From NCBI GenBank assembly GCA_017454375.1, contig JAFTDB010000011.1, forward strand, positions 1 to 64,000: 64,000 bases of DNA, given 5' to 3'. Within the stretch, counting starts at the first letter, position 1; every line of letters starts with the position of its first letter. The position numbers and the translations under genes are program-made. The stretch is from Acholeplasmatales bacterium (GTDB lineage: Bacteria; Bacillota_I; Bacilli_A; Acholeplasmatales; Anaeroplasmataceae). The notes beneath the pieces are model-generated. The model was not told the DNA's origin. It saw only the letters and a program-made list of their open reading frames with translations, and searched no databases. Positions 800-6,882 of the stretch are shown here, piece by piece.

Positions 800-1705
800 C
801 TATTCAAATCTTTTTAAATAATTTAATACAGAGATTGCAGCGATAGTACCATCAGAGGTTGCGGTGGTAAGCTGTCTAATTCTCTTACTCTTACAGTCTC
901 CCGCAACGAATATGCCTTCTTCTGATGTTTGGTTACCTTCATCAGCAAGTAGATAATTCCATTGATCCTTTTTTAAATTAGTAAATGGCTTAGTGTTGGC
1001 AATTGTACCAATTGAAACAAAGATACCATCAACTAATACTTCTTTTTCAACTCCTGCTTCATTAATAACTAAGCCTTTGAATTCATCATCCTTAATAATG
1101 TATTTTAATACCTTAGAATTGTAATGAATTTTTACCTTAGGATTCTTAGTTATCTTTTCAACATTGATAGGCTCACCAGTAAGCTTATCTAAATCCTGAA
1201 TGATTGTAACACTCTTAGTGTTGTTGATTAAATCTAGGGCAATAGTTAATGCACTATTACCACCACCAATGACTGCTACATCCTTATCATTGTAGAATGC
1301 ACCATCACAGGCAACACAAAATGAAATACCATTACCGATGAATTCATCTTCTCTATCTAGATTTAATCTACGGTATTTACAGCCTGTTGCGATAATGACT
1401 GCTCTTGCTTCGTATTTATTTGAATCTGTTGTGACAACCTTTTTATCACCAACAGATTCAATATTTAATACTTCTTCAAATTCATATCCACAGCCTAGCT
1501 CTTCTATTTGGTCGTATAGATTAGAGGTTAATTCTACACCACTAATAGATTTGTAGCCTGGATAGTTTTCAACCCTTGGTGATGAAGCAATTTGACCACC
1601 AATAGATTCTGATTCTAATACTAAAACCTTTTTATTAGCTCTAAGAAGGTATAGGGCTGATGTCATACCAGCCATTCCAGAGCCAATGATTATACAATCG
1701 TACAT
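800..1705 (-). CDS. trxB: Thioredoxin reductase (NADPH, FAD)
   Basis: 301 residues. It has an N-terminal FAD-binding GSGMAG motif, the redox pair CVACDG in the middle (usual form CATC), an NADPH-binding GGGNSA motif and the C-terminal FVAGDCKSK...RQLTTATSDG signature. It reduces thioredoxin-type disulfides with NADPH. The start ATG overlaps the nrdD stop by one base (TAATG), so translation is coupled. Last gene of the nrd operon, it is well placed to recharge the redoxin domain fused to NrdD and also TrxA (10881-11180). Family assignment is firm; the choice of NrdD as preferred partner is inference from gene order. Confidence 0.93.
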   Translation of the reverse strand: MYDCIIIGSGMAGMTSALYLLRANKKVLVLESESIGGQIASSPRVENYPGYKSISGVELTSNLYDQIEELGCGYEFEEVLNIESVGDKKVVTTDSNKYEARAVIIATGCKYRRLNLDREDEFIGNGISFCVACDGAFYNDKDVAVIGGGNSALTIALDLINNTKSVTIIQDLDKLTGEPINVEKITKNPKVKIHYNSKVLKYIIKDDEFKGLVINEAGVEKEVLVDGIFVSIGTIANTKPFTNLKKDQWNYLLADEGNQTSEEGIFVAGDCKSKRIRQLTTATSDGTIAAISVLNYLKRFE

Positions 1706-4059
1706 TATGCTCTTTCACCAATGTATTTCTTAATATTAGAAACGTTGACAATCATTTGTCCGCCTACAGCTAATGTAGGTGCTTGCTTAACACCGTATTG
1801 TTTAACTAAATCAACATTTTCTTCAGCAATAATCTTTGTATATTTAATGCCAGCCTTTTGTAGTAAAGATTCAGCTACCTTACAGTTAGGGCAAGTCTTA
1901 GATGCGAATAATAGGATTTCTGTTGAATCGCCAACCTTCTTCTCAACGATTTCTACATCATCACCAAATCTACGGCCCTTGAATAATGAACCAGCGATAT
2001 CGTAAGTCTTACGTTCCTTATATTCCTCAAGCTTACCATCATTCCAGTTCTTAACAGGACGATAGTAACCAGTGATACGGCTATAGATTTCAGTTTCCTT
2101 ATTACAATATGGACATTGCTTAACTTCACCAGCTAAGTAGCCATGTTCCTTACATACTGAGTATGTTGGAGATAATGTATAGTATGGAAGACGATAGTTA
2201 TCTGAAATCTTCTTAACTAGGTTAGCTGCAGCCTTCCAAGATTCTAATCTTTCTCCTAGGAATGTATGGAATACAGTTCCTGAAGTATATAATGTTTGAA
2301 GCTCATCTTGAACATCAAGTGCTTCAAAGATATCAGCTGTATAGCCAACAGGTAGATGTGAAGAGTTTGTATAATATGGAACATTATCCATTGAGCTAGC
2401 AGTTTGGATAGCTGGATATCTCTTCTTATCATGAGATGCTAGACGGTATGCTGTAGATTCAGCAGGTGTAGCCTCTAGGTTGTATAGATCACCATATTTT
2501 TCTTGGTAATCAGATAATTTATTTCTCATGAAGTTTAAAACATCTTTAGCGAATTCTTGACATTCCTTATTTGTTAAGTCTTTTCCTAACCAGTTAGCAT
2601 TTAAACATGCTTCATTCATACCAACTAAACCGATTGTTGAGAAGTGGTTATTGAATGTTCCTAAGTATCTCTTAGTATAAGGATATAAACCTTCATCTAA
2701 TAGCTTAGTGATTGTATTTCTCTTAATCTTTAAGCTTCTAGCAGAAATATCCATCATTCTTTCAAGTCTTGAATAAAATTCTTCTTTAGTCTTTGATAAG
2801 TAAGCAATTCTAGGTAGGTTGATAGTAACAACACCTACAGAACCTGTAGATTCACCAGAACCGAAGAAACCACCAGATTTCTTTCTTAATTCTCTTAGAT
2901 CTAGACGTAATCTACAGCACATAGATCTAACATCAGATGGTTCCATATCTGAGTTTACATAGTTAGAGAAATATGGAGTACCATATTTAGCTGTCATTTC
3001 GAATAATAATTTATTATTTTCAGTTTCAGACCAGTCAAATTCCTTAGTGATTGAATATGTAGGAATAGGATATTGGAAGCCACGACCATTGCAGTCACCT
3101 TCACACATGATTTCAATAAATGCCTTATTGATCATATCCATTTCTTTCTTACAATCTTTATATTTGAAGTCTTGTTCTTCATCACCGATTAAAGCATTTA
3201 ATTCTGCTAAATCGTTAGGTACTGTCCAGTCTAATGTGATATTAGTGAATGGAGCTTGAGTACCCCAACGAGATGGAGTATTAACACCATAAATGAATGA
3301 TTGGATACATTGCTTAACTTCTTTATATGATAGGTTATCCTTCTTAACATATGGAGCTAGGTAAGTATCAAAAGATGAGAATGCTTGAGCACCAGCCCAT
3401 TCATTTTGCATGATACCTAGGAAGTTAACCATTTGATTACAAAGTGTAGATAGGTGTCTTGCTGGAGCAGATGTAATCTTACCAGTAACACCGCCAAGGC
3501 CTTCCTTGATTAATTGTTTTAAAGACCAACCAGCACAATATCCTGATAACATAGATAGGTCATGGATATGGATATCAGCATTTCTATGTGCAGCAGCAAT
3601 TTCTTCATCATAAATCTCTGATAGCCAGTAGTTAGCTGTGATAGCACCAGAGTTAGATAGAATTAAACCACCAAGTGAATATGTAACTGTAGAGTTTTCT
3701 TTAACTCTCCAGTCATTGATTTGAACATAGTTATCAACTAATGCTTTATAATCTAATACTGTTGATTTAATATTTCTTTGCTTTTCATGTAGCTTTCTAT
3801 ATAGAATATATGATTTAGCTACATCAGTATAGCCTGATTTAGATAATACATTTTCAACGCTATCTTGAATATCTTCAACGCTAATCTTTTCATCAACAAC
3901 CTTTGATGCAAAATCAGCAGTAACCTTTAATGCTAAGAAATCAATAACATCCTTATCTGTATTAACATCTACTGAATCAAATGCTTTAGAAATTGCACTT
4001 GCTATTTTTTGTAAATTAAAGTCTACGACGCTTCCGTCTCTTTTTATAACCTTATACAT
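1705..4059 (-). CDS. nrdD: Anaerobic ribonucleoside-triphosphate reductase (class III) with fused C-terminal glutaredoxin-like domain
   Basis: 784 residues. Order: ATP-cone (about 1-100), a catalytic barrel with ADIHIHDL, the MCCRL cysteine loop and VVTINLPR, a zinc site CxxH...CPYC, the glycyl-radical segment RITGYYRPV with Gly near 664, then an added redoxin domain from about 710 carrying CPNC (723/726) and a cis-Pro QAPTL. It makes dNTPs without oxygen. The core resembles the type known from Thermotoga that uses redoxins rather than formate. An in-frame redoxin tail is unusual and would supply electrons in cis, with TrxB encoded directly downstream. SD GAGGTG lies 6 bp from the ATG. Catalytic identity firm; electron route inferred. 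Confidence 0.94.
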   Translation of the reverse strand: MYKVIKRDGSVVDFNLQKIASAISKAFDSVDVNTDKDVIDFLALKVTADFASKVVDEKISVEDIQDSVENVLSKSGYTDVAKSYILYRKLHEKQRNIKSTVLDYKALVDNYVQINDWRVKENSTVTYSLGGLILSNSGAITANYWLSEIYDEEIAAAHRNADIHIHDLSMLSGYCAGWSLKQLIKEGLGGVTGKITSAPARHLSTLCNQMVNFLGIMQNEWAGAQAFSSFDTYLAPYVKKDNLSYKEVKQCIQSFIYGVNTPSRWGTQAPFTNITLDWTVPNDLAELNALIGDEEQDFKYKDCKKEMDMINKAFIEIMCEGDCNGRGFQYPIPTYSITKEFDWSETENNKLLFEMTAKYGTPYFSNYVNSDMEPSDVRSMCCRLRLDLRELRKKSGGFFGSGESTGSVGVVTINLPRIAYLSKTKEEFYSRLERMMDISARSLKIKRNTITKLLDEGLYPYTKRYLGTFNNHFSTIGLVGMNEACLNANWLGKDLTNKECQEFAKDVLNFMRNKLSDYQEKYGDLYNLEATPAESTAYRLASHDKKRYPAIQTASSMDNVPYYTNSSHLPVGYTADIFEALDVQDELQTLYTSGTVFHTFLGERLESWKAAANLVKKISDNYRLPYYTLSPTYSVCKEHGYLAGEVKQCPYCNKETEIYSRITGYYRPVKNWNDGKLEEYKERKTYDIAGSLFKGRRFGDDVEIVEKKVGDSTEILLFASKTCPNCKVAESLLQKAGIKYTKIIAEENVDLVKQYGVKQAPTLAVGGQMIVNVSNIKKYIGERA

Positions 4060-4070
4060 AATTTCACCTC

Positions 4071-4760
4071 TTAATTTATTCCTCTAATTTGAATATAATC
4101 ATATTTTTGTTTTAGTTTATTGTAAATCTCTTTTAATTCTTGATCTGTATATGCCTCTAGATTAGAAATAATATTAGTTTCTCTATCCTCAAACTTTTGT
4201 AAAAAGTAATGCTTACAGTTTAGATAATTAATAATTAATTCAATATCCTCAGGAGTCATAAATTCTTTTATAACTGTAGTTCTAAATTCATATTCGATCT
4301 TACTATTTTTAATCAAATTAATTGATTCTCTTAATCTATCAATATTAACATTTCTACAAGTAATTATTTCATATTTTGAAAACACACTCTTTATATCCAT
4401 TGCGATATAATCTATTAAATTGTTATCTAAAAGTGTTTTAATAACTTGTGGATTAGACCCATTTGTATCTAGTTTTACCAAAAGTCCAATATCTTTTACC
4501 TTCTTGATGAATTCAATCAAGTCTGGTTGAATTGTTGGCTCTCCGCCTGTTATGCAGACACCATCAAGAAGCTTCTTTCTCTCCCTAAGATAATCAAGTA
4601 CCTCTTCCTCAGGGATGAGCTCATTATCCTGAATATCTAACACAAGTTCACTATTTTGACAATATGGACAACGGAAGTTACATCCATTAGTGAATATTGT
4701 AGCCGCAACTCTATCAGGATAATTCAAAAGTGACAATTTATCAAATCCAGCTATTTGCAT
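4071..4760 (-). CDS. nrdG: Anaerobic ribonucleotide reductase activating protein (radical SAM)
   Basis: 229 residues from ATG 4760. The radical-SAM cluster motif CNFRCPYC lies near residue 30, followed by GGEPT; the length and the N-terminal MQIAGFDKLSLLNYPD pattern match NrdG/PflA-type activases. It makes the glycyl radical on NrdD using a 4Fe-4S cluster and S-adenosylmethionine. An upstream GTG at 4772 is possible, but ATG 4760 has a GGTGAT ribosome site and begins one base after the stop of the preceding gene (TAATATG). Its position between the two NrdD-type genes fixes its substrate with good confidence. Confidence 0.9.
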   Translation of the reverse strand: MQIAGFDKLSLLNYPDRVAATIFTNGCNFRCPYCQNSELVLDIQDNELIPEEEVLDYLRERKKLLDGVCITGGEPTIQPDLIEFIKKVKDIGLLVKLDTNGSNPQVIKTLLDNNLIDYIAMDIKSVFSKYEIITCRNVNIDRLRESINLIKNSKIEYEFRTTVIKEFMTPEDIELIINYLNCKHYFLQKFEDRETNIISNLEAYTDQELKEIYNKLKQKYDYIQIRGIN

Positions 4761-4761
4761 A

Positions 4762-6672
4762 TTAATCACCACACCTAATGCTTAGGAATGCTACATCATT
4801 TGTAATCGCATCATTTAGCATATCCTTTATTTTCTTTGTTGAAGTTTTTCCTCCAACCTCAATAACATAGCGGTGACCTCCGTTAGTTAGTTTTTCATAG
4901 CTAGCTATGTCACTTACATTATCAAATGCTTTATAAGCTTCATCATATGTGCTCTTGTTAGAATCAACCTGTTCAGCAAGGATTGTCTTATCAATGTTGA
5001 TAAAGTGTGCTGAAGCATCAGCATAATTTATCCCACTAATTGAAAAGTTAAGACGCTCCTCATTACTGATTTTGCTGGCATAATCATTAAGATATTCAAG
5101 TAGTTTTAAGACATCACCTTTTTTATTCTTAAAGAATGTCCTAGCTGCTTCTGCAAGACCTACAAGGTTGATGTATAGCACACCACCTCTTAGGATTTTT
5201 CTAACCTTTTGTCCAGCCTCTAGCTTTTCACTATCAAGGATTACCTTATCATTAAATAGATAATTGTAATTCTCCTTGTAGTAATTGCACATATTTTCAA
5301 ATGCTACAAGTAGCTCATTCTTACAAAGCTCTAAACAGCTATTTAGTGAAGCATAGAATGTTTCATTATCCTTTGACTGCATCGCAATTCTAGCTAGGTT
5401 AATGCTAGTGTTTGCTAGCATTATTCTGCCTAAGGATAATTTCTTCTCTTCATTGATATTGTCTAATATTTTTTCACCTAAAAAGAAATATTCAATATCA
5501 CTAGCTGTTGTAACGTTGGCGCTAGATTTTAAATTAATAACATTAAAATCTTTCTTTGTTTCAACAAGTTCTAATAATTCATCAACTGATTTGTTATCTT
5601 CAATCTTATAATTGAAATGTATAAATTTGAAATCAGTTGTTTTGAATATATCAACGATCATCTTGTTTATAACATTACCAATGTTACCCTTAGAGCTACC
5701 AAAGCTTACTGTGTAGCCCTCATTTCTTGGGAATGATTCATCATCAATAGAAAGTAATAAATTCTTTAAATCACTATATACCTTAGAATTAGTTGCGGAC
5801 AATGAATCACTAACACATTTAGTGAATAAATCTAAGGTAGCTTTAGATTTAAAATATTTTTCTAAGGATTTTACACCACTATCAATATCATCAATCATTG
5901 AGATTTCATCCTTTAATGCGGTGATATTGATATAAGGTAATAATCCTTCTAGCTCTAGATACTTAGTTAGATAATCAGTTAAATAATTCTTATATAAATA
6001 TATATAATAAGGATTAAATACTTTATCTAGACTAGCTAGAACATGCTCGCCATATTGTTCTTTTTTAATATTTCTAAGGAAGCTAATTAAATAGAATATG
6101 TAATTATCGTTGATTTCTATTTTAGATAAATCTAAAACGGAGCCCTTAGAAATCTTAAAAGAATAATAGCCTAAGTTATGGATGAATATTATTCCCTCAT
6201 CATGGCTTCTAGTATATTTATTATCTAGAAGATATGCCCTTGCATATTCGGTTGAAATAGAACTTTCAAATGTTAGAATTGATTGAAAGCTTTCGACTCC
6301 TTTGCTGGCAAGGAATTCCATAGCCTTCAAAAACTTATGTTGTTGTTTAGTAGTAAACAAATCTCTAGATTGTGCTCTTTTAATACGATATTCCTTAAAT
6401 GCTTCATATGCTTCCTTATAAGAAGATGCATTTAAGGTATTCTCGATAATATCTTGAATATCCTCTACATTGATAGTTTTTCTATCCTTGTAGTTTTCTT
6501 CAATAAAATTAAGAACATCACTATAAATTTTGTTAATACTGTTGATATCGTAATTATCATAAGTACTATCAAAGGCCTTCTTTATCGCAATAGCTATCTT
6601 AGCTTTGTTAAAAGAAACTCTCTGACCACTTCTCTTTACGATGACCAACTCATCAAAAACATTTGAGTTCAT
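4762..6672 (-). CDS. NrdD-like ATP-cone protein lacking catalytic Cys and glycyl-radical domain (putative pseudo-subunit)
   Basis: 636 residues. Residues 1-100 form an ATP-cone much like that of the adjacent NrdD. The rest follows NrdD landmarks in order: HDEGIIFIHNLGYY for the HIHDL segment, LANTSINLARIA for VVTINLPRIA, GLAEAARTFF for GLVGMNEAC, and TNGGHRYVIEV for the TSGTVFHTFLGE region. Where NrdD has its MCCRL loop there is no cysteine. The protein stops (FLSIRCGD) just where the NrdD zinc site and glycyl radical would begin. It cannot be a standard reductase. First gene of the operon, with a strong SD (GGAGGAA) and coupled to nrdG. A regulatory or structural partner of NrdD is inference; its size and intact frame argue against simple decay. 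Confidence 0.75.
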   Translation of the reverse strand: MNSNVFDELVIVKRSGQRVSFNKAKIAIAIKKAFDSTYDNYDINSINKIYSDVLNFIEENYKDRKTINVEDIQDIIENTLNASSYKEAYEAFKEYRIKRAQSRDLFTTKQQHKFLKAMEFLASKGVESFQSILTFESSISTEYARAYLLDNKYTRSHDEGIIFIHNLGYYSFKISKGSVLDLSKIEINDNYIFYLISFLRNIKKEQYGEHVLASLDKVFNPYYIYLYKNYLTDYLTKYLELEGLLPYINITALKDEISMIDDIDSGVKSLEKYFKSKATLDLFTKCVSDSLSATNSKVYSDLKNLLLSIDDESFPRNEGYTVSFGSSKGNIGNVINKMIVDIFKTTDFKFIHFNYKIEDNKSVDELLELVETKKDFNVINLKSSANVTTASDIEYFFLGEKILDNINEEKKLSLGRIMLANTSINLARIAMQSKDNETFYASLNSCLELCKNELLVAFENMCNYYKENYNYLFNDKVILDSEKLEAGQKVRKILRGGVLYINLVGLAEAARTFFKNKKGDVLKLLEYLNDYASKISNEERLNFSISGINYADASAHFINIDKTILAEQVDSNKSTYDEAYKAFDNVSDIASYEKLTNGGHRYVIEVGGKTSTKKIKDMLNDAITNDVAFLSIRCGD

Positions 6673-6866: not shown

Positions 6867-6882
6867 GCCCTCAGTTGAGGGC
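6867..6882 (-). terminator. Intrinsic terminator after patB/malY
   Basis: GCCCTC / GAGGGC stem with a 4-base loop, followed on the minus strand by TTTTATT. It lies about 95 bp past the stop of the PLP enzyme gene. Confidence 0.75.

Follow-up and report, generated by a model that had tools for sequence, protein, structure and literature searches.

A catalytically dead NrdD paralogue with an intact ATP-cone: a predicted accessory subunit of class III ribonucleotide reductases in Bacilli

The operon and its second NrdD

The window, i.e., the entire 64,000-nucleotide stretch of an Acholeplasmatales contig that was analyzed here, contains an operon in which a paralogue of the class III ribonucleotide reductase (RNR) NrdD, here termed pseudo-NrdD, is encoded ahead of the activase and the complete enzyme. 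The gene order pseudo-nrdD / nrdG2 / nrdD / trxR is conserved, and the features are as follows.

4762..6672, reverse strand: pseudo-nrdD, coding for a catalytically dead NrdD paralogue of 636 aa with an intact ATP-cone (Pfam, active-site alignment, 51 orthologous loci, AF2 model)
6364..6645, reverse strand: ATP-cone of pseudo-NrdD, residues ~10-103 (Pfam and alignment with the P. copri NrdD [PcNrdD] contacts)
6304..6372, reverse strand: extended helix 4/linker, residues ~101-123, SRxxFxxKQQHKFxKAxE, near-invariant and occupying the position of the NxN flap region
5479..5481, reverse strand: L398, at the radical-cysteine position (E. coli C384); Cys in 0/51 aligned sequences
4071..4772, reverse strand: nrdG2 radical-SAM activase (TIGR02495, 219 bits, above the cutoff)
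1705..4059, reverse strand: complete class III NrdD with its own ATP-cone and a C-terminal glutaredoxin domain (PRK08270 equivalog, 1136 bits)
800..1705, reverse strand: thioredoxin-reductase-like gene at the operon end (TIGR01292, 288 bits, under the cutoff of 343)
6867..6882, reverse strand: candidate terminator-like hairpin upstream of the operon (consensus scan)
764-785: candidate terminator-like hairpin closing the operon (consensus scan)

The pseudo-nrdD frame is intact and begins with an ATG preceded by a GGAGGAA ribosome site, in agreement with the first-pass annotation, which had called it intact and well translated. Its product has an ATP-cone followed by the NrdD barrel: Pfam recovers the former at residues 10-100 (E 1.1e-14; 55.2 bits versus a gathering threshold of 25.8) and the NRDD domain with E 3.1e-29 (102.5 bits versus 26.2), and the protein falls far below the NCBIfam equivalog cutoffs for NrdD (156/764 bits for PRK07111 and 84/326 bits for TIGR02487). 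The two comparisons proposed at the outset, with the neighboring NrdD and with NrdD structures, both reveal the relationship: BLASTP aligns the two window proteins with 26% identity over residues 11-222 (E 7e-14), and the AF2 model (pLDDT 87.8, pTM 0.77) retrieves class III NrdDs as its best PDB matches in Foldseek (E 3e-28, TM ~0.67). The linker after the cone is modeled as one long helix, of low confidence in its second half (pLDDT 55-60).

An active-site alignment of ~60 homologues, anchored on E. coli NrdD, revealed that the radical Cys of the finger loop is absent from the window protein; in the alignment of 51 sequences, none of the 50 homologues has a Cys at this position either. The βA Cys (E. 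coli C175 position) is likewise gone, and the C terminus falls short of both the Zn cysteines and the glycyl-radical loop. The HxHD triphosphate motif is broken, its first His being retained in only 1 of the 51 sequences; in P. copri NrdD this His binds the substrate triphosphate (PMC11226230). The initial description of an ATP-cone NrdD paralogue that lacks the catalytic Cys and ends before the Zn and glycyl-radical segments is thus borne out.

Downstream, the annotated GTG start of nrdG2 (4772) gives an overlap with pseudo-nrdD, and a likelier ATG (4760) lies 1 nt past the pseudo-nrdD stop. The complete NrdD displays the MCCR and RITGYY motifs and the Grx tail, and the trxR-like gene occupies the same place in relatives whose contigs extend far enough. 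No convincing or conserved NrdR box was found upstream of the operon. Partner NrdDs in operons with pseudo-nrdD keep their own ATP-cone nearly intact; KREG or KRNG replaces KRDG in 25 of 43 of them, and KRDG is found in 8/8 checked NrdDs from loci without pseudo-nrdD. A degenerate partner cone was rejected as the reason for a second sensor, the D of KRDG being merely relaxed to E/N.

No complete RNR other than the NrdD at 1705-4059 was found in the assembly. In an inventory of about ten genomes, all of them incomplete metagenome-assembled genomes (MAGs), the active and the dead copy are the only NRDD genes in the window genome and nine others (G001, G264, G428, G346, G233, G387, G287, G275, and G381), none of which yielded a class I/II large subunit; G005 has one extra NRDD gene, and the NrdD of G405 is fragmentary. 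Because the MAGs are incomplete, such absences are provisional. With this proviso, a second NrdD, predicted to be catalytically dead, adjoins the only RNR in many uncultured gut and environmental Bacilli. In the window-type genomes, control of the adjoining NrdD would set the dNTP supply, since it is the only complete RNR found.

Distribution, origin, and a second dead lineage

A scan of GTDB species genomes yielded 80 loci, 51 of them with pseudo-nrdD. The proteins of these 51 further loci span 631-688 aa, with one annotated at 565. The gene lies directly before nrdG2 and a complete Grx-type nrdD in 50/51 loci, separated from nrdG2 by -38 to +7 nt (most commonly -4); the exception is L261, where a formate-type nrdD follows it after 47 nt. 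The linkage to nrdG and a complete nrdD seen in the window is thus near universal, which also answers the concern raised in advance that the gene might be unlinked to nrdD in related genomes. Among 395 genomes sampled across the class, a Grx-type NrdD (>1000 bits) occurs in 88, and 9 of these 88 also carry pseudo-nrdD, indicating that the gene is accessory or dispensable. Within the genus itself, G018 has nrdG2-nrdD-trxR and no pseudo-nrdD, and the NrdD of the same-genus genome without the gene is 89% identical. No match to the window-type pseudo-NrdD was found beyond Bacilli in 392 phylum-wide genomes. A phage origin was rejected, as the phage matches are distant full-length NrdDs only. There are also "solo" dead NrdDs, two of them oriented divergently from a gene for another NrdD type (L150:3945-6038, L152:1493-3775) and one unlinked at a contig end (L159:4090-5967).

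In phylogenetic analysis, pseudo-NrdD nests with the formate-type NrdDs (GCRT motif) of another family of the class; we therefore rejected its origin as a duplicate of the neighboring MCCR-type NrdD. Formate-type descent is a minor correction to the first-pass observation. The first-pass interpretation, a possible allosteric or assembly subunit, is supported in part, by the dead paralogue, the selectively conserved cone, the nrdG/nrdD linkage, and a second, NrdG-fused case.

This second case comes from four genomes of the same order (G056, G074, G082, and G091), which encode a ~900-aa fusion of ATP-cone, NrdD, and NrdG beside a Grx-type NrdD:

L170:2874-5600, L171:3737-6445, L172:119-2806, and L173:1911-4568: dead NrdD-NrdG fusions, the L173 copy being cut by the contig end

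In these fusions, GATR or GSTR stands where GCRT would place the Cys, and the Gly loop reads RRINDLL or RRVNDIT instead of RRITGYL. A single origin for both dead lineages was rejected (AU p = 9.5e-7); the second lost the same residues independently. No other NrdG above the family cutoffs was found in the four fusion genomes (the contig-cut G091 fusion itself scores just below), which suggests that the fused domain activates the neighboring NrdD.

A different rearrangement in the class is a split formate-type RNR, in which NrdD keeps both cysteines and the Zn site and ends before the glycyl-radical loop. A separate ORF of 50-67 aa, located between nrdD and nrdG and having a start of its own, encodes the loop (e.g., MDNAKKSKVVGEGVKFERIRRITGYLVGTLDRFNNAKK...).

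L162-L167, L180, L181, L183, and L184 (10 loci, from a separate scan) and 29 of L242-L285 (from the 80-locus GTDB scan): split RNR loci, the genomes being partly the same
L284:8296-8448 and L271:8293-8448: examples of the split RNR glycyl-radical ORF

Of ten such genomes checked for other NRDD genes, eight have none besides the split RNR.

Conservation and selection

Across 51 sequences (the window pseudo-NrdD and 50 homologues), mean identity is 62% in the cone and 37% in the rest. This pattern is inverted relative to active NrdDs, in which the cone is more variable than the rest (78 versus 85% in split and 72 versus 83% in Grx-type NrdDs). The residues named as (d)ATP contacts in P. copri NrdD, K7, R8, Y83, R87, and R91 (PMC11226230), align with K13, R14, Y95, R99, and R103 of pseudo-NrdD, each present in 51/51 sequences. 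The dN/dS of pseudo-nrdD is 0.10-0.17 in six pairs; purifying selection, as read from the alignments, is centered on the cone and the helix that follows it. Orthologues in 51 loci, the same gene order in 50, and these dN/dS values indicate that pseudo-nrdD is more than a chance occurrence. When the distance matrices of the operon's proteins are compared, pseudo-NrdD and NrdD have a partial correlation of 0.42, the operon's highest (a value given without a p-value).

Predicted function and its alternatives

Class III RNRs are described as homodimeric enzymes whose activator is NrdG. We propose, with a probability of roughly 0.6, that pseudo-NrdD serves the class III RNR of its own operon as a dedicated accessory subunit. 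As only the ATP/dATP-sensing part has been kept intact, control of the adjoining RNR is probably its dedicated role; the best reading is a subunit that senses (d)ATP and acts in regulation or assembly, by a mechanism that we infer as follows. In S. thermophilus NrdD, dATP-bound cones pair via helices 3/4 and the active-site flap is held away in an inhibitory step (PMC12662201). The cone of pseudo-NrdD would similarly bind ATP or dATP, and its helices 3-4, together with the extended linker helix, might pair it with NrdD by cone-cone contact or in a mixed dimer/tetramer. At high dATP, NrdD would be held inactive or NrdG barred from it, and ATP would release NrdD. The invariant cone of the dead protomer could thereby act as a partner in trans or as a gate on NrdG access, and in the separate lineage, the fusion of dead NrdD and activase might fill the same role.

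In favor of an accessory subunit are the 50/51 linkage, the invariant contacts, the inverted conservation, the genomes with a sole RNR, the second origin, the pairing of S. thermophilus NrdD cones, and the 0.42 correlation. The NrdG fusion of the second lineage also speaks indirectly for a physical association with NrdD or NrdG. Against it, pseudo-nrdD is missing from most genomes that encode the same NrdD, three "solo" relatives lie outside the operon, and NrdD retains its own nearly intact cone, which leaves no obvious need for another sensor. An allosteric partner is ranked first because selection falls on the cone and the pseudo-NrdD distances track those of NrdD best. More tentatively, at somewhat under even odds, the class III RNR here might be a multisubunit machine in which the (d)ATP cone of pseudo-NrdD, with NrdG, gates radical installation or NrdD activity, a mode of control that would have arisen at least twice, as a separate subunit and as an NrdG fusion.

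The alternative that survives best, although we consider it unlikely, is an activation adaptor: the dead NrdD would be a decoy without a radical tail whose main task is to dock or stabilize NrdG and hand it to NrdD, with (d)ATP-dependent delivery conferred by the cone. Support comes from gene order, nrdG2 being the immediate neighbor in 50/51 loci, and from the second lineage, in which the dead NrdD is physically fused to the sole NrdG over the cutoff. However, NrdG2-NrdD pairs without pseudo-nrdD are common, pseudo-NrdD lacks the glycyl-radical tail that is the NrdG target, and its partial correlation is greater with NrdD than with NrdG2. It seems distinctly improbable that pseudo-NrdD has a role unrelated to RNR, linked to it by cotranscription alone, and works on its own as a (d)ATP sensor or a buffer for dNTPs. 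Such a role would fit the intact cone, the "solo" homologues off the operon in a few genomes, and the failure to find NrdR (TIGR00244, positive in 9 of 14 control genomes) in G000, G001, G018, G056, G264, and G287, but the operon position is near-invariant, the independent second lineage likewise adjoins nrdD and is fused to NrdG, and G018 lacks both NrdR and pseudo-nrdD, leaving no clear replacement pattern.

That pseudo-NrdD is an active enzyme, through a displaced radical site or completion by a separate glycyl-radical protein, is very hard to credit, even though split NrdDs with such a protein are known in the same class. No glycyl-radical ORF was detected at the 51 pseudo-nrdD loci, and the first His of HxHD is gone in 50/51 sequences. 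As to a radical site elsewhere in the chain, a possibility raised beforehand, no column has Cys in all 51 sequences; the best, after the GLxE motif, has it in 38/51 (the L207-L286 family), and the window has A509 there. Least credible is a decaying remnant of a displaced formate-type NrdD free of selection: it would account for the loss of every catalytic part and the fast-diverging barrel but is already contradicted by the dN/dS values, the intact reading frames, comparable in length across the 51 loci apart from one with a shorter annotation, the invariant cone residues, and the conserved position.

Several known systems offer partial parallels. The formate-type NrdDs (PRK07111-like; P. copri and S. 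thermophilus structures) share the ATP-cone and 10-stranded barrel with pseudo-NrdD, which derives from them but lacks the radical Cys, βA Cys, first His of HxHD, Zn site, and glycyl-radical domain and has its conservation shifted to the cone. The R1 homologues of betaherpesviruses are likewise related to an RNR large subunit and lack catalytic residues, but they are viral class I proteins with other functions and no operon partner. Cone-based regulation on a noncatalytic subunit is seen in the ATP-cone NrdB of blandensis (PMC5794259), but that NrdB makes the radical, whereas pseudo-NrdD is a dead homologue of the catalytic subunit and its NrdD keeps its own cone. NrdR (PMC9110341) is also a noncatalytic ATP-cone protein in dNTP control, but it is a DNA-binding repressor, whereas pseudo-NrdD has a barrel after the cone and its gene lies in the RNR operon. 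In benzylsuccinate synthase, noncatalytic accessory subunits are reported to tune a glycyl-radical enzyme (PMC12590467); pseudo-NrdD differs from these in that it carries a nucleotide sensor and is itself a paralogue, now dead, of the enzyme. Aminoacyl radical enzymes keep the catalytic Cys and replace Gly with Ala/Ser/Thr (PMC11528403); this identity was excluded for pseudo-NrdD, which has lost the Cys and the radical segment. A search of open-access PMC papers, with subscription papers and preprints outside its reach, retrieved no description of a dead NrdD subunit; this agrees with the first-pass statement that no such design was known but does not prove novelty.

What would be new is the application of two known kinds of innovation, the pseudoenzyme paralogue and the mobile ATP-cone, to class III RNR. 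If the proposal is true, a separate regulatory subunit would be added to the class III RNRs: a dead paralogue with a fully conserved (d)ATP site that evolved twice in contact with the activase. The pseudo-NrdD/NrdD pair would then offer a natural system for cone-to-cone communication in trans.
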